A program made the position numbers and the translations under genes. The notes below the pieces were generated by a model. It was not told where the DNA came from. It made no database searches and was given only the letters and a program-made list of their open reading frames with translations. From the NCBI RefSeq assembly GCF_022008395.1, contig NZ_JAIRBB010000002.1:372001-436000 (forward strand): DNA of 64,000 nucleotides. Direction: 5' to 3'. This document shows, piece after piece, positions 29,537 to 63,345 of this stretch. Each line of letters opens with the position of its first letter. Within the stretch, counting starts at the first letter, position 1. The stretch comes from Aequorivita xiaoshiensis. Lineage in GTDB: Bacteria > Bacteroidota > Bacteroidia > Flavobacteriales > Flavobacteriaceae.

Positions 29537-29620
29537 AGTTCTTCTTCTTAGCTCTTAGTTTTTGTTTCTTCTTTCTTGTATCTTATTTCTTGCTTCTAGT
29601 CTCTAGTCTCTAGTTTCTAA
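29537..29620. repeat. heptameric repeat array A, between two GT4 genes
   Basis: Twelve consecutive 7-mers of the pattern nnTCTnn or nnTCTTn without a phase break: CTTCTTA, GCTCTTA, TTTCTTC, TTTCTTG, TATCTTA, TTTCTTG, CTTCTAG, TCTCTAG, TCTCTAG and others. The array fills nearly the whole gap between the gene ending at 29635 and the gene starting at 29535. Confidence 0.75.
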
Positions 29621-29634
29621 AATGGTCCTAAACC

Positions 29635-30726
29635 TTATAATTCTTTCAAAATTTTAAGATATTGTTTAATTACTTTATCCCATGTATAGTTTTGAGACCA
29701 ACTTTTCGCGCCTTTTGAATATAAGTCATAGTTATTTAAAATTTCTTCTAGAGCATCAGCTAGCTGATTTATATTCTTATTATTAATTAGTTTCCCTGAA
29801 ATTTCATTATTTATAGCGTCTTCTATACCACAACCTAAGGAACCAATGGCTGGAACTCCAAGGGCGTTAGCCTCAAGGATTGCTATACCAAAGCCTTCAG
29901 CATCGCCTGTTTTGGTGGTTTCGCTTAACATTAAAAAGACATCTGCCTCTTGCAATAATTCAATTTTTTCCATCTCAGTAACTTTTCCAAAGAAAACCAC
30001 TGAATCTTCAACTTTTAAGTTCAGCGCTAGTTTTTCTAGTTTTCGCTTTTCTGTCGGAATCCCAACAATATGGTATTTTAAATCGGGGTATTTTTTTAAA
30101 AGTAGAGGCATTGCATTAATAACATTGTGCTGCCCTTTCCGTTTGGTAACATTACCTACTGTAATTAACACAGGTACGGGTTTGGTATTGGAGTGTAGGA
30201 TTGTAGGTAATTTTAGTTCAAATCCGTTAGGGATAACCACAATATTGTCTAGTTTGAGGTGGGCAATTAAGGACTTTGTATAATTACTTACTGCTACTAT
30301 TTTTTCAAATCTTTTTAAAGATAGTTCTGTAAGTTTTCGTAGAAAAATATTAGGAAGTTTAAGTTCACTTCCGTGAATAACCGCTACAAATTTTCTATTA
30401 AAAAATAAAGAAAGGAAGGCTCCTAACCATAGAGAAAACTTACCTGAACATATAATCAATTCACTATTTTTAGCTAGTGTAACTGCTGCTTTCACACGAG
30501 CTATATAACTAAGGAAAGCTAAGTCTTTTCTTGGAATACGAGTAACTTTAAAAGGAAGGTTTTTATCGTATTCATTTTCATATATTGTGTTTTTAGAGCG
30601 ATAATCACAGAGCAAGTTTACCTCATAGCCATTTCCTTGTAATCCCTTAGCTAAATTTAAAGCGTGATTACCAATCCCCCCAGGTTGAGGCGGAAATTCG
30701 GAAGTTAATATGAGGGTTTTTGTCAT
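29635..30726 (-). CDS. family 4 glycosyltransferase
   Basis: A 363-residue GT4 enzyme, clearly full length: the N-terminal glycine loop PPQPGGIGNHALNLAKGL, the linker IVAVSNYTKSLI, the donor half with LITVGNVTKRKGQHNVINAMP and VFFGKVTEMEKIELLQEADVF, and the EX7E motif AEGFGIAILEANALGVPAIGS. Part of the polysaccharide locus. A spacer with heptamer array B separates it from the preceding GT2 gene. Confidence 0.91.
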   Translation of the reverse strand: MTKTLILTSEFPPQPGGIGNHALNLAKGLQGNGYEVNLLCDYRSKNTIYENEYDKNLPFKVTRIPRKDLAFLSYIARVKAAVTLAKNSELIICSGKFSLWLGAFLSLFFNRKFVAVIHGSELKLPNIFLRKLTELSLKRFEKIVAVSNYTKSLIAHLKLDNIVVIPNGFELKLPTILHSNTKPVPVLITVGNVTKRKGQHNVINAMPLLLKKYPDLKYHIVGIPTEKRKLEKLALNLKVEDSVVFFGKVTEMEKIELLQEADVFLMLSETTKTGDAEGFGIAILEANALGVPAIGSLGCGIEDAINNEISGKLINNKNINQLADALEEILNNYDLYSKGAKSWSQNYTWDKVIKQYLKILKEL

Positions 30727-30840
30727 TAATTTTAAAAATAGTTTTTCTTAATCAAATTTCAAGCACAAAACTATAAAAGTAGCATTGTCAAATACATTTG
30801 CAATATTCAAATTCTATATTAAGGACTTAAGACCATACTA

Positions 30841-30896
30841 CATCTAGAGTCTAGATTCTCAAGCCTCAAGTCTAACATCTCAACTCTAAAACTTCA
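30841..30896. repeat. heptameric repeat array B, running into the 3' end of a GT2 gene
   Basis: Eight 7-mers in phase: CATCTAG, AGTCTAG, ATTCTCA, AGCCTCA, AGTCTAA, CATCTCA, ACTCTAA, AACTTCA. The array extends past the stop at 30872 and encodes the last seven or eight codons and the stop of the minus-strand GT2 gene (VLELRC). Confidence 0.7.
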
Positions 30897-32212
30897 ATCA
30901 TCTCCCCCTGTTTAAGTTTCTTCGCTGCCAATCGCCATGATATCGTTACTTGAATTACTATAAATGGCAATAGGATTACAGAAATTAAGGCACCTAAAAT
31001 GAGCATCTTTTTGTTTTTCTTAAATCGGTATGGAATAATTGATAGCGGTACACTTTTAAAAAGTGCCAACACAGCACGTTTGCGACCAAAGTATTTTCTG
31101 AAAAAATATAATACACTGGGGATAGGACGTGGAGCAAATATTTTTTTAGGTCGAAAAGCATCCCAACTACCCATTTGTCTTAATCCTCCAGTAGCAGCTT
31201 TTACATCAACACAAGAAGCATATGGATTAGAAATACTTTTAAAGCCGTTTAGATAAGCTCTTAATCCAAATTCACCATCGCCCATACGTTGCTTTTCGAA
31301 TTGCCGATCAAACAATCCAATTTTTTTAAAAACAGATTTATATAGTACTGCATTCCCCGTAGCAAATTGTGAGGCTACAGAAAAAAATGAACGTTCTTTG
31401 GGAACAGAACTTCCTTCTGGGTAAAAAACTCCCGCAGATATATCAGCTTTAAAGAAATCCAAACATCGCAAGTGATTTTCAAGCCAATCAGGCTCTATCC
31501 TAACATCATCTTCTGAAAGGGCGATAATTGTCCCATTGCTTTTCTTAATTGCTGAATTTCTAGCCAACCATAGGGCGGGTTCAGATTGTTGTATATGACG
31601 TATTTTTAAGTTAAAGTCTTTGCAAAAATCCTTTTGAAACGGTATTGACTGATCTATAATTAATATTTCAAAATGCTTATAAGTCTGTTGTTCAAAGCCC
31701 TTAAGAACGTCCTTTAAAAATTCATAGCGGTTTAAAGTGGGAATTACCACACTCACTAAAGGTTTTTTAGATACTAATTCAGAATCAAAGGAAATCCAAT
31801 CATTATAAACTATAGGTTGCTTTAAATAATTACTTCTTACTGTATTATTAGACTTTTTAAAAGCTGAAATTTCATTTATCGGATTATTTAAAGAAAACAA
31901 CCGCATCAGCAGCACATAAAAAGCCCAAGCGGGATGAAAATATTTGCGAATAAATCGGTATTCATCTTCTAAAGGCAACTTTTTAAACGACGTGTAAGTT
32001 TCGGTATCTCCAATATATCCTTTATTTATGGCTTGCCAACTAAGATCGTAAGCTCTGGCTTGCTCACTCTTATAGCCAGAATCAGGGGCTAACGTTTTGA
32101 GAACTTCATTAGGCAGTTTATCGGGAATAGGGAAAACAGAGCTACCATCCTTTTTACAAAGTTGAAAATAATGCGTTGGATGCAGGTATTTTAAATTATA
32201 GAATACAGACAT
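30872..32212 (-). CDS. family 2 glycosyltransferase with extra N- and C-terminal regions
   Basis: A 446-residue GT2 enzyme. The GT-A core starts near residue 150 (PLVSVVIPTLNRYEFLKDVLKGFEQQTYKHFEILIID) and continues with LARNSAIKKSNGTIIALSEDDVRIEPDWLE, where the metal-binding acidic motif reads EDDVR, and FDRQFEKQRMGDGEFGLRAYLNG near residue 310. The first 145 residues are an unassigned extension. A C-terminal membrane helix (about 405-425) anchors it. The last residues come from the heptamer array at 30841-30896, so the C-terminus may not be original. Its start overlaps the sulfotransferase stop by one base. Confidence 0.86.
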   Translation of the reverse strand: MSVFYNLKYLHPTHYFQLCKKDGSSVFPIPDKLPNEVLKTLAPDSGYKSEQARAYDLSWQAINKGYIGDTETYTSFKKLPLEDEYRFIRKYFHPAWAFYVLLMRLFSLNNPINEISAFKKSNNTVRSNYLKQPIVYNDWISFDSELVSKKPLVSVVIPTLNRYEFLKDVLKGFEQQTYKHFEILIIDQSIPFQKDFCKDFNLKIRHIQQSEPALWLARNSAIKKSNGTIIALSEDDVRIEPDWLENHLRCLDFFKADISAGVFYPEGSSVPKERSFFSVASQFATGNAVLYKSVFKKIGLFDRQFEKQRMGDGEFGLRAYLNGFKSISNPYASCVDVKAATGGLRQMGSWDAFRPKKIFAPRPIPSVLYFFRKYFGRKRAVLALFKSVPLSIIPYRFKKNKKMLILGALISVILLPFIVIQVTISWRLAAKKLKQGEMIEVLELRC

Positions 32213-33069: not shown

Positions 33070-33076
33070 TATAAGA

Positions 33077-34141: not shown

Positions 34142-34255
34142 TTTTCGATTCTCTATTAGGATTGTCGGCTTATTGTTTCTCACAGAGGCCGCTTAGTTTT
34201 ACGCAGAAATCGCGGTATTATTCACAAAAATTTAATTATTCTTAACGGACTACGT

Positions 34256-35431: not shown

Positions 35432-35433
35432 AA

Positions 35434-36291: not shown

Positions 36292-36293
36292 TA

Positions 36294-37346
36294 TTACTTT
36301 GTATTTTTTAAATATACTTTTTCATAAGACGATATTTCATTCTGTACTGAAAAATTTGCATTTATATTTTTGATTCCTTCTATAGAAAGTCTTTTGATTT
36401 CTTCTTTATTGGTAGCTATCCTCCTAAGTTTATCCGCCAAGCTATTAGGATTATCTAAATTAAATATATACCCACCACCTTTTGATAGAATATATCTTGC
36501 CCCACCTCCAGAGTCTGAGGATAGCACTGGCAAGCCACATGCTAATGCTTCTAGAATAGACACAGGTAACCCTTCTTGATATGACGCCAATACAAACAAA
36601 TCCATCGCTCTATAAACTTCAGGTATTGTCATATTTTCTATAAATCCATGAAAATGAACCCGCTTTTTTATATTGTTCAACGCTATAAAATCATTCAGTT
36701 TTTTTCTATATTCTTTATCTTCCTTACCATATAAATGCAATACTATATTATGAGGTAAATTTTTTAGTGCTTTTATTATAAATAGCTGATTCTTATTATC
36801 TCCAATATTTCCAACACACACAACATTAAAGGTAGTATGATCAATTGGTTTAAATGGTTTAAATACATTTGTATCAACCCCATGTGGAATGAAAGAAATT
36901 TTATGTCTTAAAAGGAATGAGTTAAAAAATCGAGCTTTCATTTCTGGGTTATCATAAGCAATATGGCTAGACAACCAACTTTTTAACAACCAACGCTTTG
37001 ACCAAGCATTATTCTTTTTGGTATATAGATATTTAACTCCGGCTAACCTACATGCAAGCGCTTCCGTATAATTAGATTTATAGTCCCATGAATGTAAAAT
37101 ATCAATATTGTGTTTCTTTAAAACAGCTCTAAAATTAAGCACATCATGCCGCTTCTTACCTGACCAATTAAAAAGAATAACTTCATTTTCAAAAATATCT
37201 TCTGGAACTGACTCTGGAAATTTTTCTATACAGATGAAAGGCTCAAAAATATCTCTATCGATATTCCTAAACAAAGACAACAAGACATACTGACTTCCAG
37301 CCGTCTTAAAGTTCGGAATAGTATATAGAATCTTGGTTTTCGACAT
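36294..37346 (-). CDS. family 4 glycosyltransferase
   Basis: A 350-residue GT4 enzyme. N-terminal KTAGSQYVLLSLFRNID, then FIPHGVDTNVFKPF, FNVVCVGNIGDNKNQLFIIKAL, VHFHGFIENMTIPEVYRAMDLFVLAS and the EX7E motif QEGLPVSILEALACGLPVLSSD. Typical length. Part of the polysaccharide locus. The spacer upstream of it (37347-37506) contains CGCAGAG-like sequence and heptamer array C. Confidence 0.91.
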   Translation of the reverse strand: MSKTKILYTIPNFKTAGSQYVLLSLFRNIDRDIFEPFICIEKFPESVPEDIFENEVILFNWSGKKRHDVLNFRAVLKKHNIDILHSWDYKSNYTEALACRLAGVKYLYTKKNNAWSKRWLLKSWLSSHIAYDNPEMKARFFNSFLLRHKISFIPHGVDTNVFKPFKPIDHTTFNVVCVGNIGDNKNQLFIIKALKNLPHNIVLHLYGKEDKEYRKKLNDFIALNNIKKRVHFHGFIENMTIPEVYRAMDLFVLASYQEGLPVSILEALACGLPVLSSDSGGGARYILSKGGGYIFNLDNPNSLADKLRRIATNKEEIKRLSIEGIKNINANFSVQNEISSYEKVYLKNTK

Positions 37347-37458
37347 TTTGTTTATTAGCTATCTGTAATTTTCTATTGTGTATGTATGTTTCTCGCAGTA
37401 ACCGCAGAGAACAACGAAGAGTTTTAAAATACTCAGCGTACTCCATGCGTTTCACCCC

Positions 37459-37521
37459 CCACTTCGTACTTCCAACTTCCAACTTCGTACTTCCAACTTC
37501 GCACTTCTAACCTCGCACTTC
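37459..37521. repeat. heptameric repeat array C, running into the 3' end of the asparagine-synthase-like gene
   Basis: Nine 7-mers in phase of the type nnACTTC: CCACTTC, GTACTTC, CAACTTC, CAACTTC, GTACTTC, CAACTTC, GCACTTC, TAACCTC, GCACTTC. The last two cover the stop at 37507 and the final codons (EVRG) of the minus-strand gene. Confidence 0.85.
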
Positions 37522-38895
37522 ATTATCATACCAAACCGCCAATGTAAGCAACATACTCAGTGGATGCGAATATTTCACCATATCATCAGTTTTAAACTTA
37601 TTATAAAATCGCGTTATCAATTCTTTTGGTAGGAAAGGATGCAGGTTTTCACCAAAGATACGTTCCTGTAGCTTTTCATCATTTTCCATTCCCAAAAATT
37701 GTAGCTCCCAATTACGTTGAATATACGGTTTTCCCAACTTGGCATTAATTACTCGTTTGGCTTTATCCATTATGCGATAAGGTAAATTATGAGGAGATTC
37801 ATTTTTATGATAATCGTAGAGGTTATAGGGTCTTTGAGCTTGCCACGTAATCTTCGCCACATCAGGGCTTTGGTTCTTTAAATAGGCGATTTGTATTTTC
37901 CTATCAGCCAAGTACTCTTCTGGCACCCCACAGATAAATTCCGCCATCCTATCGTCATAATAAGGTGCTTCTATAGGATTCGTGGCTTTAAATATAGCAA
38001 AGCCTAAATTAGTCCATCGCACGGCGCGGGTACTGCTATAATAGGCTCGAGCTTTGGCGCCTACATCATCTATTTTAAGTCCGCTCCATATCTCCTTGGT
38101 GCGTTGCCTAAGATATTCCATAAACTCTCCTTCCAATTCCCATTCTTTCCATAGAGCCTCTGCCAACTCTTGCCCACCCTTTACTATAATCTTTTTTAAT
38201 ATCCATTCCTCTGCATCTTCCTCGGCTAGATCATTAGGTGCTACGGAATTAAATAGAACATCACCCCAATGTCCTAAAGTAAAAACACCTTCCATTTTTC
38301 TAAACTCATCTATAACCGCCATTTGTCGTGGATGGGTGAATTCGGTGCCGTAATTTAATAGTTTAGCCAATTCATCGACCTTGTTCCATAAATAACCTGG
38401 TTTGATGGTCATATCTCTATATTCATAACCGAGTTCATTTGCAATTTGTCTAGCAATTGCTCCCTCTTTATAACCGTTGTGAAACGAATAGCTATAGGAA
38501 GTCACGGGATTGTTTAGCTTGGAGTAAGCAACTGCCTGCGTCCTGCTATCCAAACCTCCTGAAAGAGGAAGTAATACATTTCTATTCCCTGCTTGTTCTT
38601 TGCATATGGCGTGAAATAGTTCTGTGAATTCTGAAACTGCTTGGTCAAACGATATGTCTCTAGGTTTGTAATACCATTCAAACCAAGGCTTGCTATCAAC
38701 CCAGTATCCTTCATGGTCAATGGTGTTGATTGTTCCCGAAGGGAGTACTTTTTCATCTTTCCAATAGGTGTCTGTGCCGAGGAAATAACTGGTGGCTGCA
38801 AAAATGCAAATAGCCTTTTTATCTAATTCGTGTGGCGCACGGACTTTTACGTGTTGAGGATGAGTGGGAAGAATGGGGGTTTTTATAGTCGGCAA
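37507..38895 (-). CDS. asparagine-synthase-like amidotransferase without a glutaminase domain
   Basis: A 462-residue protein with the ATP-pyrophosphatase (asparagine synthase C-terminal) domain; the PP-loop SGGLDS is at 112-117. Only a remnant of the N-terminal glutaminase domain is left (residues about 27-60, FLGTDTYWKDEKVLPSGTI), and there is no Cys2, so it cannot take ammonia from glutamine by itself. In polysaccharide loci such proteins are thought to amidate uronic acids. It starts with TTG at 38895, at the very edge of heptamer array D, and ends inside array C. Either the N-terminus was lost or this is a naturally short form. Confidence 0.8.
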   Translation of the reverse strand: MPTIKTPILPTHPQHVKVRAPHELDKKAICIFAATSYFLGTDTYWKDEKVLPSGTINTIDHEGYWVDSKPWFEWYYKPRDISFDQAVSEFTELFHAICKEQAGNRNVLLPLSGGLDSRTQAVAYSKLNNPVTSYSYSFHNGYKEGAIARQIANELGYEYRDMTIKPGYLWNKVDELAKLLNYGTEFTHPRQMAVIDEFRKMEGVFTLGHWGDVLFNSVAPNDLAEEDAEEWILKKIIVKGGQELAEALWKEWELEGEFMEYLRQRTKEIWSGLKIDDVGAKARAYYSSTRAVRWTNLGFAIFKATNPIEAPYYDDRMAEFICGVPEEYLADRKIQIAYLKNQSPDVAKITWQAQRPYNLYDYHKNESPHNLPYRIMDKAKRVINAKLGKPYIQRNWELQFLGMENDEKLQERIFGENLHPFLPKELITRFYNKFKTDDMVKYSHPLSMLLTLAVWYDNEVRG

Positions 38896-38903
38896 AATTA
38901 TTC

Positions 38904-39029
38904 GAGATTAGAGGTGTGAGGTTAGAAATACGAGGTTAGAAATACGAGGTTAGAAGTACGAAGTTAGATGTACGAAGTTAGATGTACGAAGTTAGATATA
39001 CGAAGTTAGAGTTACGAGGTTTGAGGTTT
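38904..39029. repeat. heptameric repeat array D
   Basis: Eighteen 7-mers in phase, here in the opposite orientation (GAnnTnn on the plus strand): GAGGTTA, GAAATAC, GAGGTTA, GAAATAC, GAAGTTA, GATGTAC, GAAGTTA, GATGTAC and so on. Alternation of two 7-mers gives a 14-bp higher-order repeat. The array fills the gap between the gene starting at 38895 and the gene ending at 39038. Confidence 0.92.
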
Positions 39030-39037
39030 GATTTGAC

Positions 39038-39397
39038 TTATTTGGTTTTTTGGTTTCTACGAGCGGTTTTAATAGAGGCGACAACAATTGATAAAATTTC
39101 ATTCCCTTCTTTATGCAATATCTGAATTTCATTGGTAAGTGCTGGGTTAATTTCGGATAATAATTCTAAAAAGTACAACGTCTCATCCGCTTCTTCTTCC
39201 ACAATCTTAAGCTTATTAATAAAATCTGCAGTAGATTTTGCTCGTTGCGACGCACGATAGTTTGCTCCCACAGAACTTGAACATCTAATTAGCTGGTTAA
39301 CGTATGCATTATATTCTCTAGTCTTAGGCATTTTAGCGCAAAACCTCCAAACATTAACTGCATATCTCTGAGTCCGCTTTATAATCGTATTCTCCAT
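39038..39397 (-). CDS. four-helix-bundle protein (S23/IVP-like family)
   Basis: About 119 residues from ATG at 39397 (MENTIIKRTQRYAVNVWRF); a TTG at 39421 is in frame but less likely. The family pattern is clear: NQLIRCSSSVGANYRASQRAKSTADFINKLKIVEEEADETLYFLELL. Related proteins are encoded in intervening sequences of 23S rRNA in some bacteria and also occur as free genes in Bacteroidota, often near polysaccharide genes; the function is unknown. Here it is bracketed by heptamer arrays D and E. Confidence 0.88.
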   Translation of the reverse strand: MENTIIKRTQRYAVNVWRFCAKMPKTREYNAYVNQLIRCSSSVGANYRASQRAKSTADFINKLKIVEEEADETLYFLELLSEINPALTNEIQILHKEGNEILSIVVASIKTARRNQKTK

Positions 39398-39443
39398 TAT
39401 AAGCTCATTTATTCTAAACAATCAAATTTAATGTTTAAAGCTC

Positions 39444-39527
39444 AAAACTTCAAACTTCCCACTTCAAACTTCGTACTTCACACTTCGTACTTCCTAATTC
39501 GTACTTCCTAATTCGTACTTCGAACTT
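39444..39527. repeat. heptameric repeat array E, running into the 3' end of a GT4 gene
   Basis: Twelve 7-mers in phase: AAAACTT, CAAACTT, CCCACTT, CAAACTT, CGTACTT, CACACTT, CGTACTT, CCTAATT, CGTACTT, CCTAATT, CGTACTT, CGAACTT. The right end covers the stop at 39508 and the last codons of the minus-strand GT4 gene (VRSTN). Confidence 0.9.
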
Positions 39528-40689
39528 GAAAATACAACTCCTCCATTCCCTCAACCATCCTCTCCTCATTATGTTGCCGCTCCACCTTTTCACGAGCTGC
39601 TACTCTCACCGCCCCAATTTTCTTTAAAGATAACGCTCTGAAATTCATTACCGCTACCGCCATAGCTTCAGGATTACGAGTTGGAACTACCCATCCATTT
39701 ACTCCATTCGTTATCAACTCAGAAATACCACCGCAATCGGTGCTAATTACAGGCAAACCAATTGCCATAGCTTCTACCACTACATTTGGAATACCTTCTT
39801 CTAAGCTAGGCATTAGCAATAAAGAGGATGAGCGCATTACATCGAAGACTTCACTTTGAGAAGCAGACGCTGCTAAGCTTACATAACCTTTCAAACCTAA
39901 ATCGGCAATTAAAAATTGTAATTCCTCATTTCCCGCACCTCCGATTATAGTATAATGAAATGAAATATTTTGATCTTTTAATCGCTTACAAGTCTGTAGC
40001 GCATAATCATAACCTTTTATCCAATGAGGCCTCCCCACGGATAGCAATTGTAACGAATTTAAAATGTAATATTTTTCAAGAAAAGGGGTGATTTCTAGCG
40101 GTAACCCTGTATACACTACTTTATCAATCTTATAAGTGTCATTCCAAATCTTATCTCCATTACGTGAAATAGCCTTTGAAACTGAATGAAAACCTGCCAT
40201 TTTAGAATACCAACGTTGTAAATAGCTAAAATTTTTATCGTTAACAAAAGGACGAACATTAACATGGAAACCCAATTGACTTAATACAACTGGGGTAGTT
40301 TGAGAAGAAAGCACTTCTTCAAACCAAGGTATTACCGAAAGCCACTGCAAATGAATTACATCGGGCCCTATTTTTTGTAGAACAAATTTTAGATTCTGTT
40401 TGTGAAGTTCCTTACGACGTCCTAAAGCTATTTTTTTTAAAGTATTATAAACAAGCTTTATAGAGCCCGCTTGTAAAGCATATTGTAGTGTTGTTTTTAC
40501 AAATCGAATTTTGCTTTGATTACTTCCAAGGGGTATATAATTTACTTTTTCTAACCTATTGGGAAGGGTTTCATTAAAACCTAAAATATAAACTTGATGT
40601 CTCTCCGTTAATCCTTGCGCTAAACGATTGATAAACGACCTTGTTTTAAAACTGCCATCGAAAATAATTATTTTTAAAGGTTTTATCAA
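39508..40689 (-). CDS. family 4 glycosyltransferase
   Basis: A 393-residue GT4 enzyme: LKIIIFDGSFKTRSFINRLAQGL at the start, then VIHLQWLSVIPWFEEVL, LLSVGRPHWIKGYDYALQTCKRL, VSLAASASQSEVFDVMRSSSLLLMPS and the EX7E motif EEGIPNVVVEAMAIGLPVISTD. Start is TTG at 40689 with no ATG alternative. The final residues are encoded by heptamer array E, so the natural C-terminus may have been replaced. Confidence 0.9.
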   Translation of the reverse strand: MIKPLKIIIFDGSFKTRSFINRLAQGLTERHQVYILGFNETLPNRLEKVNYIPLGSNQSKIRFVKTTLQYALQAGSIKLVYNTLKKIALGRRKELHKQNLKFVLQKIGPDVIHLQWLSVIPWFEEVLSSQTTPVVLSQLGFHVNVRPFVNDKNFSYLQRWYSKMAGFHSVSKAISRNGDKIWNDTYKIDKVVYTGLPLEITPFLEKYYILNSLQLLSVGRPHWIKGYDYALQTCKRLKDQNISFHYTIIGGAGNEELQFLIADLGLKGYVSLAASASQSEVFDVMRSSSLLLMPSLEEGIPNVVVEAMAIGLPVISTDCGGISELITNGVNGWVVPTRNPEAMAVAVMNFRALSLKKIGAVRVAAREKVERQHNEERMVEGMEELYFQVRSTN

Positions 40690-40699
40690 TTCGTTCTAT

Positions 40700-41680
40700 T
40701 TAATGGTGTATTTGTTTAAACGTAGATTTGACGGATTCTACTAACTTTATAGGCTTTGGAGTTAATTTTATAAAAAAATATTTTCTCCCCTTTTTAAATT
40801 TCTTCACCTGCTTTTCGGTAAACATTAAATTCTCCTTAAAATAATTTTCTAGTTCCTGTCGGTTCATTCCGGAATTGTTTACAACATCTCGCAGTAATAA
40901 TTTTAAATCTTCAACTTTATTGCCTGATAAAAACACATCAGGACGATCGCTGAAGTTGGTAAATTTTTTTATAAAATCCTCCGCGTCATAGGCATGATAA
41001 TGTAAGACATTGCCTTTAACAACTCGTTTTGCAGAGGTGCCATCAATATGTCTATATCGATGTACATTATGAGGAATTAGATTGGCAGCTACACGTATAG
41101 CCGATTTTCCCATGGTATGTCCGTACCACCATGGAAATTTCTGTTTTGATTTCGAAAAGGGATTTTTTATTGGCAAGTAAAATACTTGTTTATTTACTTT
41201 AAAATTAGATTCCTCCGCAAAAACATTAGTATAATTCTCCTTTTGCTGAAGAACTTCTAAAGTTGTAAAATCAACTAATTCGGTATCCTTAGGAATAGTA
41301 TTAAAAAACGATTTTAAATCTGATTGCTTTTTAAAATCTGTACAAATCAACTCATCGGCATCAATAGAAATAAGCCAGTCGATCCCTTCTTCTTTACATT
41401 TTTGCTGGGCATCATAAGTGTTTAAGCATTGTCGTGCCGTATGATGTTCTGCCGCCTGCGAGGTGAATTTTTTTAAGTAAGGTAAAGATACATAGGTATC
41501 TGAAGAAACAGAGTTTGAAACATTTACAAAGTCTAAATCGGCAATACTTTCTCTTCCATTATCAGTAGTGTTGTCAAAATATACGAAAACTTTATCTACC
41601 CCGATTACCTTATGATAAAGCAGATTGTTTCGCAATAAACGAACTTCATTTTTAACGGTAATGACCAAAGCTATTTTCAC
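40700..41680 (-). CDS. glycosyltransferase family 2/92-like protein
   Basis: A 326-residue enzyme of the Glyco_tranf_2_4 (GT2/GT92-like) type. Seen: IALVITVKNEVRLLRNNLLYHKVIGVDKVFVYFDNTTDN at the N-terminus, then DWLISIDADELI with the metal-binding DxD near residue 110, and a His-rich block (IPHNVHRYRHIDG) typical of this group. The last 25 residues are basic. GTG at 41680 is the start. Ten bases upstream of the GT4 gene at 39508-40689 in the operon. Confidence 0.85.
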   Translation of the reverse strand: MKIALVITVKNEVRLLRNNLLYHKVIGVDKVFVYFDNTTDNGRESIADLDFVNVSNSVSSDTYVSLPYLKKFTSQAAEHHTARQCLNTYDAQQKCKEEGIDWLISIDADELICTDFKKQSDLKSFFNTIPKDTELVDFTTLEVLQQKENYTNVFAEESNFKVNKQVFYLPIKNPFSKSKQKFPWWYGHTMGKSAIRVAANLIPHNVHRYRHIDGTSAKRVVKGNVLHYHAYDAEDFIKKFTNFSDRPDVFLSGNKVEDLKLLLRDVVNNSGMNRQELENYFKENLMFTEKQVKKFKKGRKYFFIKLTPKPIKLVESVKSTFKQIHH

Positions 41681-41720
41681 CAGAGTTATAGTTTTTTTAT
41701 TTGGCTAGTAAATATATAAG

Positions 41721-43786: not shown

Positions 43787-44542
43787 TTATCCCTCAAATG
43801 CATTAACTATATCCATAAAGCTATCTACTTTTAAGGCTGCACCTCCAATTAGTCCGCCATCAACATCAGTTTGAGAGAAAATTTCAACAGCATTGTTAGG
43901 TTTTACACTACCTCCATATAAAATTGAAACTTTATCGGCGATAGCTTTTGAGTACTTTTCTTCTATCGTTTTTCGAATAAACAAATGCATTTCTTGTGCC
44001 TGCTCGGGACTAGCAGTTTCTCCAGTACCAATAGCCCAAACTGGTTCATAAGCTATAATAATATGCTCCCAAGCTTCACTAGAAACATGGAAGAGACCTT
44101 CCGTAAGTTGGGTTTTTATTAAGTTAAAATGATTTTCGCTTTTTCTATCTTCAAGCTCCTCCCCAATACAGAAAATTATAGTCAATTCATTTTTTAAAGC
44201 TGTATTTACTTTTTCTGCTAGCAACTGGCTATCTTCATTAAAATAAGCACGACGTTCACTATGACCTAATATAACAGTATTTACTCCAACGCTTTTAAGC
44301 ATTTTTGCCGACACCTCCCCTGTAAAAGCACCTTCATCATTCTGATGCATATTTTGAGCAGCAATCGATACAGGATGTTCGCGCATAGAAGTAAATGCGT
44401 GACTTAAATTGGTAAAAGGAGGGGCTATCATTACCACTACATCTTCTGGAAAAACTTGTTTTTTAAAATCTACTAAAAATGTTTCAGTCTGTGCTAAGTC
44501 ATTATTCATTTTCCAATTCCCAGCTACTATTTTCTTTCTCAT
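43787..44542 (-). CDS. tpiA: triose-phosphate isomerase
   Basis: Interconverts dihydroxyacetone phosphate and glyceraldehyde 3-phosphate in glycolysis. A 251-residue TIM barrel, the usual length, with GNWKMN (Lys11 region), ILGHSERR with the electrophilic His near 95, AYEPVWAIGTG with the catalytic Glu near 165, and the phosphate loop ILYGGSVKPNN and GGLIGGAAL. Downstream of an ABC permease gene in the same direction, separated by heptamer array F. Confidence 0.98.
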   Translation of the reverse strand: MRKKIVAGNWKMNNDLAQTETFLVDFKKQVFPEDVVVMIAPPFTNLSHAFTSMREHPVSIAAQNMHQNDEGAFTGEVSAKMLKSVGVNTVILGHSERRAYFNEDSQLLAEKVNTALKNELTIIFCIGEELEDRKSENHFNLIKTQLTEGLFHVSSEAWEHIIIAYEPVWAIGTGETASPEQAQEMHLFIRKTIEEKYSKAIADKVSILYGGSVKPNNAVEIFSQTDVDGGLIGGAALKVDSFMDIVNAFEG

Positions 44543-44600
44543 AATCGTATATGTTTGGTGTTTCGTGTTTTCTTATGGTAAAACTATTTTTAAAGTTTAA

Positions 44601-44656
44601 TTCAAATTCCTAAATTCATCATTCTGCATTCATAATTCATAATTCATAATTAACTA
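44601..44656. repeat. heptameric repeat array F between the ABC permease and tpiA genes
   Basis: About eight 7-mers in phase: TTCAAAT, TCCTAAA, TTCATCA, TTCTGCA, TTCATAA, TTCATAA, TTCATAA, TTAACTA. The last 7-mer holds the stop (44654-44656) of the minus-strand permease gene. Confidence 0.78.
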
Positions 44657-45730
44657 CTGTCTACTAATCTTTGGGTCTAGCCAACCGTAAATTATATCTA
44701 CAAAAATATTGATTAATATAAACAATGTTGCAATTACTAATACTGCGCCCATTATTACAGGTAAATCTAAAGTATTTAAAGCGTTTACAATTTCTTTTCC
44801 TAACCCGTTCCAACCAAAGATGTATTCTACAAAAACAGCTCCTGCAAGCATAGAAGCAAACCAACCAGAAATAGCCGTAACTACCGGGTTTAGCGAATTT
44901 TTTAAAGCGTGGCGTTTAATGATTTGATAAAACGAAAGTCCTTTGGCTTTTGCAGTACGTATGTAATCTTGATTTAAAACTTCCAACAAGGAGTTTCGCA
45001 TTAACTGACTAACAACTGCAAGTGGGCGAATACCTAAAACTACGGCAGGTAAAATCAAATTTTTCCACTGAATGTATTTACCATTCCCAAAATCATCAAC
45101 TTCATATAGGCTTCCTGTCATATTTAAGTTTGTGTATTTGTGTAGTACAAATCCGAAAACCCAAGCGAATATAATCGCACTAAAAAACGAAGGAACACTC
45201 ATTCCTAAGGTGCTTACCAATTGAATCATCTTATCGACAAATCCATCTTTGAACAACACTGAAATGATGCCCAAAAGCACTCCGATAAAAATTGCAATTA
45301 CAATGGCTGAAACTGCAAGAATAAAGGTATTTGGTAAGGTTTCGGCTATTACCTGACTCACTTCTTTTCCGTTTTTTTGAAATGATTCGCGCAAATAAGG
45401 CGTTTTAATTACAACATTTGTATTTCCTAGATTGAACAAATGAGTAGCATTGTACTTTCCTTCTTTTAAATAAGTATAATCTTCAGGATTATTACTGTGA
45501 AAGGAAATGGGTGATAAATCGTTTAAATACCGTACATATTGAACAGAAACAGGTTGATCGTAACCGTATTTCTTTTTAACGATTGCAACTTGTTCGGCGG
45601 TTTCATTTTGACCCAACATCATTCTTGCTGGATCTCCAGGAAGTATTGTAAAAAGGAGGAATATAACAGTAACAACCCCAAATAGTGTCAATACAGCGTA
45701 ACCCAATTTTTGAAGAATATACTTTACCAC
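44654..45730 (-). CDS. ABC transporter permease (DppB/OppB-like)
   Basis: A 358-residue inner-membrane permease of the peptide/nickel ABC importer type. N-terminal first helix and ILPGDPARMMLGQNETAEQ are characteristic of DppB; the BPD_transp_1 domain (about 130-355) contains six helices and the EAA-like loop LRRN-type segment VVSQLMRNSLLEVLNQDYIRTAKAKGLS that contacts the ATPase. No DppC, ATPase or solute-binding protein is adjacent. The start is GTG, overlapping the stop of the DoxX-family fusion gene by one base, so both are co-translated. Confidence 0.9.
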   Translation of the reverse strand: MVKYILQKLGYAVLTLFGVVTVIFLLFTILPGDPARMMLGQNETAEQVAIVKKKYGYDQPVSVQYVRYLNDLSPISFHSNNPEDYTYLKEGKYNATHLFNLGNTNVVIKTPYLRESFQKNGKEVSQVIAETLPNTFILAVSAIVIAIFIGVLLGIISVLFKDGFVDKMIQLVSTLGMSVPSFFSAIIFAWVFGFVLHKYTNLNMTGSLYEVDDFGNGKYIQWKNLILPAVVLGIRPLAVVSQLMRNSLLEVLNQDYIRTAKAKGLSFYQIIKRHALKNSLNPVVTAISGWFASMLAGAVFVEYIFGWNGLGKEIVNALNTLDLPVIMGAVLVIATLFILINIFVDIIYGWLDPKISRQ

Positions 45731-47445: not shown

Positions 47446-47599
47446 TTACTTTATTTTACTTAAATTAACTTTAGATATATATAAATTTTACTTTCTTAAT
47501 TACTGGTATTATATCTTAAACCACAAAAATTTAAAATTTCAAGCACCAAATTCCAAAACTAAATTATATTAAAATTTTTGCTTAAGATTAAATTTATCT

Positions 47600-47938
47600 C
47601 TACTCAAACTTTTTAATTATTCTAGATAATATTTTTGTTATTTCTTCAGATTCATTAATTAACTATTTAATTTCCATAATACCTGAATTCGCTTCCTTTA
47701 ATAATAATAATAATAACCAATATCTAGATTCTTTAGTTTCCTTTATAGCTATCTTTAATCTAAATACAAAATCTCTATCACCTAGTTTTTCATTTGCTTC
47801 AATATAATTAGCTCCAACAGAACCCGACGATTTAATCAATTGTTTACCATCTTCAACATTTGCGGTTGTATACTTTATAGATTGAACGAGTATACGACAT
47901 TCATTTGCAAATTGAAAAGCTCTTTCTTCTAAATCATA
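47600..47938 (-). pseudogene. broken four-helix-bundle (S23/IVP-like) gene
   Basis: On the minus strand one frame reads YDLEERAFQFANECR, then VEDGKQLIKSSGSVGANYIEANEKLGDRDFVFRLKIA and KETKESRYWLLLLLLKEANSG, which is the S23-type four-helix bundle. A TAG interrupts it after MEIK, after which the frame resumes (LINESEEITKILSRIIKKFE). A TAA directly precedes the first recognisable residue and no start codon remains. The run of six Leu comes from repeated TTATTA-type codons. This is a decayed second copy of the family present intact at 39038-39397. Together with AT-rich flanks it fills the 556-base gap between 47446 and 48001. Confidence 0.8.
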
Positions 47939-47950
47939 TTATGCACTCAC

Positions 47951-47990
47951 TTTTTGGAATTTAAATTTTTAGTTTTTGGAATTTAAATTA
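47951..47990. repeat. 22-bp spaced direct repeat beside the S23 pseudogene
   Basis: TTTTTGGAATTTAAATT occurs at 47951 and again at 47973. It lies between the decayed S23 gene and the DUF1599 gene. The spacing of 22 is three heptamers plus one base, so it may be a decayed relative of the 7-bp arrays. Confidence 0.45.
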
Positions 47991-50333: not shown

Positions 50334-50359
50334 AAACCTAAATCTAAGTATAAATAAAA

Positions 50360-50703
50360 AAGCAGGCCTATAAGCCGGGTTCTGTTACTACTTCAATTTC
50401 ATCAAAATAGCACCTTATCATTTATCTAGACGTGTCGTTACCGAGACGCTCAATCTGTCTACCCTCCTGCATCGGGCGGGTACCCTTATCCGAAAACGGA
50501 ACGCAAGTTTACGTGACATTTCACCGCATAGAGTTTACCTGGTTTCACTACAGCATTACCTGTACATACTTTCTGTTGCACTTGTCCTAAAATTCTTACC
50601 TACGCAAGAATAGTGACGGCTGTTAGCCGCTATGCTTCCCTGTGGTGTCCGGACTTTCCTCCCTCCCAATTAAAATCGGGACGACGATAAGGCGGCCTGC
50701 TGT
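50360..50703 (-). ncRNA. rnpB: RNase P RNA (bacterial class A)
   Basis: On the minus strand the RNA begins AGCAGGCCGCC and ends GGCCTGCT, forming the P1 helix. The conserved core GAGGAAAGTCCGGAC lies near the 5' end (about 50645-50670) and ACAGAACCCGGCTTATAGG near the 3' end. Other elements (GGTAAACTC, GAGGGTAGACAGA near 50455) match RNase P RNA. It processes the 5' ends of tRNA precursors with RnpA. A promoter (-7 TACTTTTG) is at 50705-50712. The P1 helix followed by a T run (50351-50359) ends the transcript. Confidence 0.97.
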
Positions 50704-52669: not shown

Positions 52670-52796
52670 CTAGAGTAAATTCGAACAACAATTTGGTAGC
52701 TATAAAGTACAATAGTGATAGATTTTAAATGACACCACTCTTTAAGCGTGGACAAATAAAATTTTAATACCGTAAAATTATAACGATTAAAAAAAT

Positions 52797-53378: not shown

Positions 53379-53399
53379 ATAATTTAGCCCCCCTTCCAA

Positions 53400-55314: not shown

Positions 55315-55344
55315 CCTAAGCCAATAGTCATTTATAGATACGAG

Positions 55345-56601: not shown

Positions 56602-56650
56602 CGTAACTATTGTTTCCACCGTAAAGGTTTCTTAACGAGATTTATATTGT

Positions 56651-57556: not shown

Positions 57557-57557
57557 A

Positions 57558-60139: not shown

Positions 60140-60210
60140 TGTGTTTTATTAATTCCAAATTTAGATGGCAATCAGAATATCACTGCGCCACCTTAATCCA
60201 ATTCCCTCAT

Positions 60211-60855
60211 TTATGGAGCTAACCTCTCAATCACCCAATCGTTACCCTCTAACCTATATCGAATTCTGTCGTGCAGCCTATTTGGTCTACCTTGCCAGAA
60301 TTCTATAGAGATTGGCTTTACTAATATTCCTCCCCAATCATCTGGCTTTGGAACTTCTTCCTTTTGGTATTTCTCTTCGAGTTCTGCCAAATTCTTCTCT
60401 AGAAATTCTCGGGATTCTACTACTTCACTTTGATGTGAAACAAGTGCTCCTAGCTGACTTCCCTTTGGTCTAGAATGAAAATAATTTGTTGAATCTGCTT
60501 TTGAAGTTTTCTCAGCAGTACCTTTAATTATAATTTGACGTTCCATGTTTGGCCAAAAGAAAGACAAAGACACCTTGTTGTTATTTGCAATAGCCTTACC
60601 TTTTTCACTTTCGTAATTAGTGTAAAAATAAAAGCCGTATTCGTCGTATTTCTTTAGTAAAACTACTCTACCTTTTGGGAAACCATCGGTCCCAATAGTA
60701 TTTACCGTCATTGCATTAACTTCATCTACACTACCACTGTCCTGCACCTCATAAAACCATTTACGGAATTGTTGCATCGGGTTTTCAGCTACCGAATTTC
60801 TGGATAGCTCTCCTTTTTCATAAGATTTTCGGTAGTCGTGAAGCTTTTCGGCCAT
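60211..60855 (-). CDS. pdxH: pyridoxamine 5'-phosphate oxidase
   Basis: FMN-dependent enzyme that makes pyridoxal 5'-phosphate from pyridoxine or pyridoxamine phosphate. A 214-residue protein with GFPKGRVVLLKKYDEYGFYFYTNYESEKGKAI (FMN site), WPNMERQIIIKGTAE, FHSRPKGSQLGALVS and the C-terminal signature FWQGRPNRLHDRIRY. Full length. Same strand as rnz upstream, with a 144-base spacer. Confidence 0.97.
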   Translation of the reverse strand: MAEKLHDYRKSYEKGELSRNSVAENPMQQFRKWFYEVQDSGSVDEVNAMTVNTIGTDGFPKGRVVLLKKYDEYGFYFYTNYESEKGKAIANNNKVSLSFFWPNMERQIIIKGTAEKTSKADSTNYFHSRPKGSQLGALVSHQSEVVESREFLEKNLAELEEKYQKEEVPKPDDWGGILVKPISIEFWQGRPNRLHDRIRYRLEGNDWVIERLAP

Positions 60856-60999
60856 TTCTCAAGTTTTAACGCAAGTTAAGAGTTTTAAATATTCTTTGAA
60901 ATAGCAGATTATTAAATATGTATTAAATATTTTCCTTTAGATAAGATTCAATGATGAATTTAAACGAAATGATAAAGCCGAACTAGTATGAAAAGTAAA

Positions 61000-61905
61000 T
61001 TAAAACTGAAAGGATTTTCCGTCCTCAGCTAATTCTACATTATCAAATATTTCTAGGGCCTCCTTGCGGAAAAGTTCAAGTTTTCCGTAGCGGCCAGAAT
61101 AATGACCGAGAATTAATGTTCCAACTTCTCCTTTGCGCGCAATTACAGCAGCCTCCTTAGCGGTGCTGTGTTTGGTTTTTTCAGCCAGATGATAGTGTTC
61201 GTCCAGAAAGGTTGATTCGTGATATAGAACAGTTGCTCCTTCAATTTGAGGAACCATCTCTGGATTATATTCGGTATCACTACAAAAGGCATACGATTTT
61301 GGTGCCGGTGGATCGAAGGTAATGTCTTTGTTCGAAATCAACTTACCATCTTTATTCTTCACGTCAAAACCTTGTTTTATTTTGTTGTAATAACTTAAAT
61401 CGATATTCAGGTTTCGAGCGGCATTCACATCTAACTTTCGGTCTTCAAGTTTTTCTTTAAAAAGGAATCCATTTGTATATACTCTATGTTTTAAAGGAAT
61501 TGTTTCCACCGTCACCTTATCATCTTCATAAATTACTTGAGGCGTATTCTCTTCTAGTTCGTGAAAATACAAAGGGTAATTTGTATAGGCTTTCCCCAAC
61601 TTAAGAAGCAATAATATAGCCTGTTTTATGCCTTTGGGGCCGTAGATATGCAATTCCGCTTCTCTTCCTAATAATAAAAACGTTGAAATTAAACCTGGTA
61701 AGCCAAAGAAGTGATCGCCGTGTAGATGTGAAATAAATATGTGACGAATACGCGAAAAATTAACCCTATATTTTCTTAATTGCATCTGGGTTCCCTCCCC
61801 ACAGTCAATTAAAAACAAATGCCCCTTAATCTCCAAAATCTGCGCTGTTGGGTGCGTAGAAGCAGTTGGAGTTGCTGAATGGCATCCTAGGATAGTTAAT
61901 TTCAA
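61000..61905 (-). CDS. rnz: ribonuclease Z
   Basis: Endonuclease that trims the 3' ends of tRNA precursors. A 301-residue metallo-beta-lactamase: KLTILGCHSATPTA at the N-terminus, the zinc motif SHLHGDHFFGLPGL (about 62-75), CSDTEYNPEM with the bridging Asp, YHESTFLDEHYHLAEKTKHSTAKEAA and LGHYSGRYG. Start is TTG at 61905, because no ATG precedes the conserved MKLTILG. Encoded downstream of the small STAS-like protein. Confidence 0.95.
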   Translation of the reverse strand: MKLTILGCHSATPTASTHPTAQILEIKGHLFLIDCGEGTQMQLRKYRVNFSRIRHIFISHLHGDHFFGLPGLISTFLLLGREAELHIYGPKGIKQAILLLLKLGKAYTNYPLYFHELEENTPQVIYEDDKVTVETIPLKHRVYTNGFLFKEKLEDRKLDVNAARNLNIDLSYYNKIKQGFDVKNKDGKLISNKDITFDPPAPKSYAFCSDTEYNPEMVPQIEGATVLYHESTFLDEHYHLAEKTKHSTAKEAAVIARKGEVGTLILGHYSGRYGKLELFRKEALEIFDNVELAEDGKSFQF

Positions 61906-61972
61906 AATCTAATTTTTAAAAAATTATTGATTCTCGTATCAGAAGCTTTACGAGTATACTGCTCTGTTTAGA

Positions 61973-62308
61973 CTAAAAACCGAGATCGCGCTCAATTTCT
62001 TCCATTTCAACAATATCTTCAGCTTCCTGAAGTGTTGGCACAACAACTAATTCGTAAGGGACTTCATCTATATCAATGGCAGCGTTTACAATAACAAAGG
62101 AATAGTTTGTTTTGCGATGAAGGTTCGACGTTTTTAAGAATTGTAATAATTCTGGCAAGGATAAAGAGTTATACTTCAATAAGTTCAAAACCACATTCTG
62201 ACCCTGATACTTTGCAGGAACTTGACTCTCAATAAATGAGGCAAAATCTATTATATCATCCTTTTCATCTTCAAGGACAACAAAATTTGAATGATTCTCA
62301 ATCTTCAT
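61973..62308 (-). CDS. small STAS-like protein
   Basis: A 111-residue protein without signal or membrane segment. The pattern of alternating strands and helices (NFVVLEDEKDDIIDFASFIES; QNVVLNLLKYNSLSLPELLQFLKTS; NYSFVIVNA; VVVPTLQEAEDIVEMEEIERDLGF) looks like a STAS/anti-anti-sigma fold, but the typical phosphorylatable Ser motif is not evident (NSLSL is a weak candidate). It overlaps pyrB by 11 bases. Homologues next to rnz are sometimes misnamed ribonuclease Z because of position. Function unknown. Confidence 0.75.
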   Translation of the reverse strand: MKIENHSNFVVLEDEKDDIIDFASFIESQVPAKYQGQNVVLNLLKYNSLSLPELLQFLKTSNLHRKTNYSFVIVNAAIDIDEVPYELVVVPTLQEAEDIVEMEEIERDLGF

Positions 62309-63233
62309 TATGTTTAATTTTTGAGGCTAATAAATAAATTACTGCCATACGGATGGCTACTCCATTTTCTACTTGACCTAATATAATAGATTGTTTGCTA
62401 TCTGCAACATCACTTGTGATTTCCACACCGCGATTAATTGGCCCTGGGTGCATTACTACAATTTCCTTATTTAAAGAATCAAGCATCGCTTTATTAAGTC
62501 CGAATTGTTGTGAATATTCTCGAGTTGTTGGGAAATAACTAATATCCATACGCTCGTTTTGAACGCGAAGCATATTTGCTACATCGCACCACTCCAACGC
62601 TTTACGTAAATTAGTTTCCACCCCTACATTTAATTTTTCTATATATTTAGGAATAAGTGTTTTAGGGCCACACACCTTAACCTTTGCTCCAAGCTTTTGA
62701 AGTGTAAAAATATTCGACAATGCAACTCTAGAGTGAAGAATATCACCAACAATAACCACATTTTTTCCTGCAACATCACCTAACTTTTCACGAATAGAAT
62801 AGCTATCTAATAAGGCTTGGGTAGGATGTTCATGCGCTCCATCTCCTGCATTAATAATACTAGCATTGACGTGTTTCGATAAGAAAATTCCTGCTCCTGG
62901 ATTTGGATGACGCATTACCACCATATCAACTTTCATAGAAAGAATATTGTTTACAGTATCGATAAGCGTTTCTCCTTTGGCAACAGAAGAGCTCGAAGAT
63001 GCAAAATTTATAACATCTGCAGAAAGCCGTTTTTCAGCAAGCTCAAACGAAAGTTTCGTTCGCGTACTATTTTCGAAAAAGAGATTGGCAATGGTAATAT
63101 CTCGAAGCGATGGCACTTTTTTAATAGGTCGGTTAATAACCTCTTTAAAATGATCGGCCGTCTCGAAGATGAGTTGAATATCAGCTTCGGTTATGTATTT
63201 TATTCCCAGTAAGTGATTTACACTTAGTTCCAT
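62298..63233 (-). CDS. pyrB: aspartate carbamoyltransferase, catalytic subunit
   Basis: Joins carbamoyl phosphate and aspartate in the second step of pyrimidine synthesis. A 311-residue protein with the carbamoyl-phosphate site FFENSTRTKLSFELAEKRL (about 52-70), DMVVMRHPNPGA, AGDGAHEHPTQALLDSY, VGDILHSRVALSN and MHPGPINRGVEI. No PyrI regulatory subunit gene is adjacent, so it likely works as a free catalytic trimer. It follows pyrR on the same strand; heptamer array G fills the gap. Confidence 0.97.
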   Translation of the reverse strand: MELSVNHLLGIKYITEADIQLIFETADHFKEVINRPIKKVPSLRDITIANLFFENSTRTKLSFELAEKRLSADVINFASSSSSVAKGETLIDTVNNILSMKVDMVVMRHPNPGAGIFLSKHVNASIINAGDGAHEHPTQALLDSYSIREKLGDVAGKNVVIVGDILHSRVALSNIFTLQKLGAKVKVCGPKTLIPKYIEKLNVGVETNLRKALEWCDVANMLRVQNERMDISYFPTTREYSQQFGLNKAMLDSLNKEIVVMHPGPINRGVEITSDVADSKQSIILGQVENGVAIRMAVIYLLASKIKHNED

Positions 63234-63240
63234 TGTTTGG

Positions 63241-63345
63241 TTTTCGGTTATCTGTTATCAATTATCTATTGACAGTTGTCTTTTCTACACTAGTCACGTT
63301 CAACTCCCTACTCGCTTCCCCCTACTCTCTCTCTTAACTCTTAAC
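63241..63345. repeat. heptameric repeat array G, between pyrR and pyrB
   Basis: About fifteen 7-mers in phase, most clearly TTATCTG, TTATCAA, TTATCTA, TTGACAG, TTGTCTT at the left and CTCCCTA, CTCGCTT, CCCCCTA, CTCTCTC, TCTTAAC, TCTTAAC at the right; the middle is degenerate. The right end includes the stop (63334-63336) and last two codons of pyrR. Confidence 0.7.

Follow-up and report, generated by a model that had tools for sequence, protein, structure and literature searches.

Heptamer arrays between genes of Aequorivita xiaoshiensis as probable arms of intervening-sequence-like elements around S23 four-helix-bundle genes

The stretch of DNA analysed here, referred to as the window, comprises 64,000 nucleotides of Aequorivita xiaoshiensis (contig NZ_JAIRBB010000002.1, positions 372,001 to 436,000 of the forward strand). 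Seven of its intergenic spacers carry degenerate tandem arrays of 7-bp units, designated A to G, and two of these arrays, D and E, enclose a small four-helix-bundle (4HB) gene of the S23 family. A second, broken 4HB gene with short arms of its own, which was absent from the list of an earlier note on this DNA, lies farther along the window. The features are as follows.

29546..29619, minus strand: array A, a single array with a G-rich coding strand (15 G, 8 C)
30843..30890, minus strand: array B, the weakest, with a G-rich coding strand (13 G, 5 C); holds the stop codon of the gene at 30872-32212
37458..37521, minus strand: array C, a single array of GAAGTNN units with a G-rich coding strand
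38904..39029, minus strand: array D, downstream (right) arm; 38949-39029 takes part in the inverted alignment
39038..39421, minus strand: 4HB gene, open, 127 aa; S23 family, TIGR02436 / PF05635 '23S rRNA-intervening sequence protein'
39427..39527, minus strand: array E, upstream (left) arm of GAAGTNN units; 39445-39525 takes part in the inverted alignment
44599..44665, minus strand: array F, GAATTAT units, between a DppB-like permease gene (44654-45730) and the triosephosphate isomerase gene (43787-44542)
47548..47576, minus strand: downstream arm of the broken element, partner of 47958..47984 in the inverted alignment
47606..47929, minus strand: second 4HB gene, broken by one TAG in its domain
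47958..47984, minus strand: upstream arm of the broken element, AAATTCC-type; inverted alignment score 30
63236..63346, minus strand: array G, two motifs, between pyrR (63334-63903) and pyrB (62298-63233; named by reading its translation)

The periodicity was assessed by a maximal-segment scan of the whole window (self-match scored +1/-1.2, lags 2-30, threshold score of at least 14), which returned 5, 5, 4 and 4 segments at lags 7, 14, 21 and 28, respectively, one segment each at lags 3, 22 and 30, and none at any remaining lag; one of the four lag-21 segments, at 24981, lies outside the array sites. For each spacer, the better of the lag-7 and lag-14 scores was compared with those of 1000 dinucleotide-preserving shuffles, and the observed score was reached by 0, 1, 0, 0, 0, 0 and 0 of the 1000 shuffles for A to G. 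All seven array spacers score at least 9, and the other 33 of the 40 window spacers scored fall below 9. Array B is the weakest (lag-7 score 12.4), and array D is best seen at lag 14, its lag-7 signal alone being reached by 11 of 1000 shuffles. Chance periodicity in AT-rich spacers is rejected by the lag scan and the shuffle controls, and coding periodicity is rejected as well, being expected at lags 6, 9 and 12, not 7. The seven degenerate 7-bp arrays described in the earlier note are thus real at all sites, and neither of the two outcomes that it had named as speaking against them was seen: shuffled spacers do not give an equal lag-7 signal (0-1 of 1000), and arrays are present elsewhere in the genome, a 400-kb sample of which holds eight non-coding lag-7 segments, compared with 0-2 at the other lags tested.

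The arrays differ in unit and in their fit to the neighboring genes. Arrays C, D and E constitute one family, GAAGTNN, with D on the plus strand and C and E on the minus strand, so that the earlier claim that the heptamer changes from site to site is correct only in part. D reads as a 14-bp dimer, GAAGTTA GATGTAC, on the plus strand; G is composed of two successive motifs, the GAGTTAA-like one adjoining the stop codon and GATAACN adjoining the start. The stop codons of flanking genes fall inside B, C, E, F and G, which overrun those 3' ends; in C the stop is that of an asparagine-synthase-like gene (37507-38895), and in E that of the upstream gene. Array A lies 16 bp past the stop of a glycosyltransferase gene (29635-30726). 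Scanning 37300-40800 for promoters and terminators gave no signal above shuffles, and at gathering scores Rfam matched only RNase P in the window and nothing in four 4HB loci. The RNase P RNA (RF00010) occupies 50355-50703 of the window, minus strand.

The gene at 39038-39421 scores 77.9 bits against TIGR02436 (cut-off 24) and 57.8 bits against PF05635 (cut-off 33.8). The arrays on its two sides are related: E aligns to the reverse complement of D with a score of 68, its coding strand is G-rich (28 G, 7 C), and that of D is C-rich (7 G, 39 C in 38904-39025). D and E are therefore two inverted arms of one element centered on the S23 4HB gene, and this element sits between protein genes. The genome of this strain (G000; 3.06 Mb, 83 contigs) contains eight matches to the 4HB family, five of which have internal stops; the broken gene at 47606-47929 is among these five.

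The same architecture was found across the genus, where all 23 relatives of the first search carry 5 to 21 4HB copies per genome. The pooled set comprises 115 4HB places, 106 of them distinct; 5 whose flank fell short of 120 bp on one side or the other were set aside, leaving 101, and in each of these the 200 bp upstream of the gene were aligned with the reverse-complemented 200 bp downstream of it. Inverted arms with a score of at least 28 are present in 78 of the 101 loci (at least 24 in 89). At 28, the controls gave 3.9% for swapped partners, 1/101 for far flanks (450-650 bp away) and 1/120 for ordinary genes of similar size from G000 and four relatives. Scored over both flanks, the period that fits best is 7 in 75 loci, 8 in 14, 6 in 8, 9 in 2 and 13 in 2, and when the arms are scored independently 7+7 is chosen in 61 loci and 8+8 in 13; period 7 is the choice in 11/100 far flanks (8 in 5/100) and for 21/120 small control genes. 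Units of 6 bp are exemplified by the CAGTCT arms of L167 and L178 at the ffh-folD junction. The statement of the earlier note that period, not sequence, is what the arrays share holds across loci, genomes and phyla; since arms of 8 and 6 exist, 7 is neither constant nor absolute.

Arrays also cluster around these genes. At a strict array threshold of 13, a period-7/8 array is found on at least one side of 33 of 50 4HB loci and on both sides of 16. Within 499 kb of sequence around 4HB genes, 37 of the 88 period-7/14 arrays lie no more than 300 bp from a 4HB gene, a zone that makes up 5.8% of the sequence (29 kb), as do 14 of the 21 period-8/16 arrays; six other period pairs gave 0-2 arrays each in that zone. 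Proximity so far above chance, together with the frequency of arrays that lack a 4HB gene, could also be produced if 4HB genes inserted preferentially into heptad arrays that already existed. Insertion into one array leaves halves in direct orientation, and the orientation contest goes the other way, inverted similarity exceeding direct in 78 of the 101 loci, falling below it in 21 and equaling it in 2. A minority of loci, such as L090, which is direct, could have arisen by such insertion, for which a ready-made hairpin loop would be another possible target; as a general account, it is highly improbable.

The median dN/dS (nonsynonymous over synonymous divergence) over 46 pairs of intact 4HB domains is 0.07, a rough figure given the high dS (median 1.2), and this low value argues that the 4HB protein does something; a stop is contained in 21 of the 106 distinct domains. 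A profile built from 20 relatives matches the solved structures 2gsc (XCC0516) and 2rld, each with five chains. According to a reference title in PMC10053308, XCC0516 of Xanthomonas campestris consists of five four-helix bundles, and passages of PMC4692102 place a strain of that species among the genomes rich in GGGAATC heptamers; XCC0516 and these heptamers may belong together.

The arms have a strand polarity relative to the gene they enclose. Read toward the ORF (open reading frame), G exceeds C in 69 elements and C exceeds G in 8. The 4HB gene is co-directional with the upstream gene in 49/49 cases and with both neighbors in 47/49 (a usable neighbor pair was available at 49 of the 50 places), so that in the genus loci the ORF lies in sense, as it does in the intervening sequences (IVSs) of 23S rRNA. 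A corresponding rule was observed for single arrays, defined as those separated by over 1 kb from any 4HB gene detected, of which 58 lie between co-directional genes after removal of duplicates and ties and a further 18 between genes of opposite direction. Clear cases near a stop were taken as those no more than 25 bp from the stop and at least 40 bp from the start, and near-start cases as the converse. In these clear cases the coding strand is the G-rich one for 13 of 15 arrays near a stop and the C-rich one for 8 of 8 near a start (Fisher 9e-5); of all 58 arrays, those closer to the stop divide 18:15 (G to C) and those closer to the start 5:20 (p 0.014). Six of the window arrays, A to F, follow this rule, and G has its G-rich motif at the stop and, at the start, GATAACN with a bare C excess (4 G, 5 C).

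Taken together, these observations lead us to propose, with a probability of roughly three in four, that the arrays are arms of IVS-like elements which surround an S23/IVP 4HB gene and have settled between stop and start codons in operons. A complete unit would consist of a left arm of 7-bp (or 8-bp) repeats with a G-rich inward strand, the 4HB ORF, and a right arm reverse-complementary to the left one. The unit would be placed between the stop of one gene and the start of the next, mainly in operons and mainly in sense.

Junctions conserved across the genus, with gene names (atpA-atpG, ffh-folD, adk-obg) assigned by reading of translations, reveal that the insert at one junction changes in type. 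At atpA-atpG, four kinds of insert, sorted by eye, are distributed over 27 genomes, none of which is empty: hairpins of 7-bp units (70-86 bp, 10 genomes), hairpins of 8-bp units (77-83 bp, 9 genomes), and 4HB elements with GAGTTAT arms (5 genomes) or GAATTAT arms (3 genomes). G000 and its close relative G023 carry different inserts here. The insert kind must change at least 11 times on a three-protein tree and 10 times on one built from the neighboring atpA+atpG DNA; interspecies exchange of the entire atp segment is therefore rejected as the sole cause of the type changes. At ffh-folD, a 4HB element is present in 14 of 28 genomes, with arms of CAGTGTT, CAGTCT and others, and the remaining genomes have short hairpins, single arrays, a hairpin TCGAGCGCAGTCGAG resembling repetitive extragenic palindromes (REP; five genomes), or none of these.

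Two further features of these junctions were seen. In L158, L161, L164, L171 and L179, the ffh-folD junction holds the REP-like TCGAGCGCAGTCGAG hairpin in place of the heptad element. At atpA-atpG, L150, L151, L153 and L154 carry composite elements, with a small hairpin upstream of the 4HB gene and an extra C-type arm downstream.

The nine 8-bp hairpins were compared for covariation. In 91% of cells the bases pair, and six pairs have double changes; these amount to 16 double-change cells, a count that 0 of 500 shuffles matched and that slid controls (1-5 cells) did not approach, and the number of pairs with double changes is by itself unremarkable (145/500 shuffles). Compensatory changes and ORF-less hairpins would also result if the arms were matched by hairpin-templated mutation (quasi-palindrome correction) and the hairpins served only as devices for mRNA stability or translation coupling, an idea for which passages of PMC2670836 provide a published form in the heptanucleotide short tandem repeats (STRRs) of cyanobacteria. 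Such correction is compatible with IVS-like elements; as an explanation on its own, it accounts for neither the period, nor the low dN/dS seen for 4HB genes, nor their co-occurrence with arrays, and we regard it as very unlikely.

The orphan arrays A, B, C, F and G are probably single arms or derivatives of 4HB elements. At junction F (28 genomes, with the permease gene found in 28, and with gene order beside tpiA differing in part) and at junction G (26 genomes, with pyrR found in 25), the arrays differ in unit and length and are absent in some genomes. What ties orphan arrays to the family is the co-occurrence of arrays and 4HB genes at the level of genomes. Counting segments with a score of at least 11 in non-coding DNA, 54 lag-7 segments were found in 238 kb from eleven genomes with 4HB genes, and one lag-7 and one lag-14 segment in 81 kb from six without, these six being hand-picked single-contig genomes that differ in GC content. 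Three of the 4HB-free genomes, with a non-coding GC of 0.30-0.41, gave 0 lag-7 segments in 59 kb. At a score of 13, the lag-7 counts are 0 without 4HB, 13 in rich genomes of other genera, 17 in the genus and 8 in the own genome. Among phylum genomes, 30 of the 114 that have 4HB genes contain the 8-bp arm pattern CTYTGYGNCTYTGYGG, versus 0 of the 34 that lack them (Fisher 1.8e-4).

These comparisons also bear on polymerase slippage, by which the arrays would be ordinary heptanucleotide satellites, with 7 bp favored by the footprint of the polymerase, and would have no tie to 4HB genes. Slippage very likely alters unit numbers, array F being longer by one unit in G000 than in its near relative G023, and arrays without a 4HB gene at F and G across 28 and 26 genomes fit it as well; the polymerase idea is cited in passages of PMC4679880 and PMC4692102. 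It does not predict matched inverted arms around 4HB genes (compared with 1/120 small genes), inward G polarity, the stop/start rule, or the almost complete lack of arrays in the 4HB-free genomes sampled, and is therefore unlikely as the whole explanation. Nor do the arrays conform to ordinary microsatellites, which have a constant unit and no partner array: the units here are degenerate, and those around the 4HB gene have an inverted partner, the single arrays being without one.

Beyond the genus, 4HB genes between inverted arms recur in several phyla. Of 148 Bacteroidota genomes, 114 have a TIGR02436 match, compared with 0 of 14 control genomes. Inverted arms with a score of at least 28 are present in 15 of the best-scoring 30 phylum loci and, among the matches listed for named genomes, in 7 of 12 loci, including those of a Verrucomicrobium, an Alphaproteobacterium and a Levybacterium; for the two sets together (the best 30 plus the 12 among the matches listed) the count is 22/42, and 2.6% for swapped partners. 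Among plasmid 4HB loci, 16 of 18 have arms (14 of 16 in cyanobacteria and both of the others, Gemmatirosa and Azospirillum), with an inward strand in which G exceeds C in all 16; the swapped-partner rate is higher here (10.8%) because cyanobacterial arms resemble one another. In 16 annotated plasmid loci the gene has the same orientation as both neighbors in 11, is opposite to both in 3 and is mixed in 2. Phages gave no match to one 4HB query. Some cyanobacterial 4HB genes with heptad or octad arms lie inside cas operons (cas6-cas4, cas10-cmr3; L356, L360, L368).

Several observations weigh against the proposal. At the level of single loci, 23 of the 101 genus loci lack inverted arms at 28, direct similarity of at least 28 is also found in 23 of 101, and both arrays flanking L090 (around 6001-6324) are, by eye, in direct orientation; 17 of 50 4HB loci have no period-7/8 array on either side at threshold 13. 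The threshold is likewise missed by the other 15 of the best-scoring 30 phylum loci and by 5 of the 12 among the matches listed for named genomes, and the 4HB gene runs antisense to both neighbors in 3 of the 16 loci from cyanobacteria. At the level of genomes, G144 has 13 4HB copies and 0 lag-7 segments in 16.9 kb, G070 and G159 have 1 and 0 lag-7 segments despite their 4HB genes, and the 4HB-free sample is hand-picked and includes the lag-14 segment. Searches across the whole loci found a 4HB gene in 0 of 28 genomes at F and 0 of 26 at G, so the orphan arrays are not proven relics, and the notion that all of them are relics of a 4HB gene once at the same site is not supported at these two junctions. 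The high dS behind the dN/dS figure belongs here as well.

Concerning mobility, recent transposition is rejected: among 4HB pairs with unshared outer flanks (30 of 165 pairs), none exceeds 79.5% identity, so there are no near-identical copies at different sites. No target-site duplication was seen by eye at the junctions compared, which offer few true empty sites. Mobility is thus inferred from turnover alone. The turnover has a further complication, in that shuffled labels require 13.9 and 14.2 changes on average (three-protein and atpA+atpG trees, respectively), and counts as low as those observed arise in 5 and 0 of 200 shuffles; the insert kinds are therefore partly clustered on the trees. 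Interspecies exchange may account for part of the turnover.

If the arrays are arms of IVS-like elements, a mechanism can be outlined by analogy with the IVSs of 23S rRNA. The two arms would pair in the transcript into a long stem with the ORF in its loop, and RNase III might cut the paired stem, in which case the insert would be harmless. The 4HB pentamer may bind the repeated arms, perhaps with one subunit per unit, and such binding would keep the spacing as the sequence drifts, so that the period would outlive the sequence. Arrays would gain and lose whole units, and single arrays and ORF-less hairpins, such as A, B, C, F and G, would be derivatives or non-autonomous copies. The earlier suggestion of a copying process that measures 7 bp, or of selection on spacing, was a useful direction; it missed the inverted arms around an S23/IVP gene, the matching within an element and the near-absence of arrays in sampled genomes without the gene family, and 7 is not absolute.

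A wider reading, which we offer tentatively and hold to be a little short of an even chance when all its parts are taken jointly, would extend this outline. S23/IVP 4HB genes would be the protein part of cross-phylum elements with inverted period-7/8 arms (such elements are found in Bacteroidota, Cyanobacteria, a Verrucomicrobium, Alphaproteobacteria, a Gemmatimonad and a Levybacterium), and the IVSs of 23S rRNA would be one special case. STRRs, TAACTGA repeats and the GGGAATC/GGGGATT heptamers of Xanthomonas and Nostoc would be arms or derivatives. The ring-shaped S23 pentamer would read arm RNA or DNA with a pitch of 7 nt per subunit, and the pentamer or a copying partner would also make arrays in trans at gene-free sites.

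In the passages of the literature seen, the origin of the excess of 7-bp repeats in bacterial genomes and of cyanobacterial STRRs is not agreed upon, the explanations on offer being the polymerase footprint, G-quadruplexes, transcript stability or translation coupling, and regulator sites (PMC4679880, PMC2670836, PMC4692102). Linking the arrays to a single protein family opens this question to direct tests and extends the genomic range of S23/IVP, familiar chiefly from 23S rRNA, to further sites (atpA-atpG, ffh-folD, adk-obg and cyanobacterial cas operons among them); other unexplained 7-letter repeats may be explained by the design of 4HB elements.

Of the known systems, REP sequences with their REP-associated tyrosine transposases (RAYT) are nearly constant in sequence and have a Y1 transposase. 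As generally described, they resemble the present elements in having a small gene between inverted repeats together with scattered solitary hairpins, and differ in that REP is near-constant whereas the arm sequence here varies. Diversity-generating retroelements (DGRs) share a protein fold, their Avd protein (4DWL) being, in passages of PMC10053308, a four-helix bundle homologous to 2GSC. Unlike in DGRs, the reverse transcriptase domain RVT_1 is found in only 9 of 28 genus genomes and at 0 places in G000, and a retro-element driven by reverse transcriptase is not supported, except perhaps for past events.

STRRs of cyanobacteria were rightly named as a relative in the earlier note. The window arrays are tandem degenerate 7-bp units between genes, as STRRs are, and STRRs are intergenic and hairpin-capable in passages of PMC2670836; in cyanobacterial plasmids, moreover, 14 of 16 4HB loci have arms. 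The likeness is one of period and place, and the literature passages show no tie of STRRs to an S23 gene. TAACTGA repeats of Beggiatoaceae, cyanobacteria and some Bacteroidetes are likewise intergenic heptamer arrays in passages of PMC4679880, and the left arm of the Verrucomicrobium locus L186 contains three successive units of AACTGAT, the heptamer of that paper. Passages of the same source describe spacers of Gramella and Aequorivita with long heptamer arrays and shorter, array-free spacers in their relatives. The words '23S rRNA' and 'four helix' are absent from PMC4679880, and the repeats are given in its passages as one fixed sequence and as a possible regulator site in Beggiatoaceae. 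Extended to the present arrays, this would make them binding sites of a host translational regulator near starts and stops; the unit sequence differs between sites and genomes and the arms flank an ORF, and this is the least probable of the explanations considered.

Separately, S23 IVSs, STRRs and heptamer repeats have all been described before, and their joining was found in no paper searched; the one source found to tie S23/IVP genes to period-7 arrays, in a search that covered subscription journals poorly, is the Coxiella IVS paper (PMC4990558). In the 23S IVS of Coxiella, heptameric repeats adjoin the S23 ORF and vary in unit number, with an RNase III site at the first repeat (PMC4990558). 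The IVSs of Coxiella and Leptospira (PMC4990558) share with the present elements an S23/IVP ORF, inverted complementary ends and an ORF in sense to the host transcript. They differ in host, which is 23S rRNA (helix 9, 25 or 45) in the one case and the space between protein genes in the other, so that the present elements, lying outside 23S rRNA, are not filed as 23S IVSs. The Coxiella ORF has been called expendable (PMC4990558), whereas dN/dS of the present 4HB genes is low. In contrast to 23S IVSs, the present elements have arms made of repeat arrays, occur in many copies per genome and are accompanied by ORF-less hairpins and single arms.

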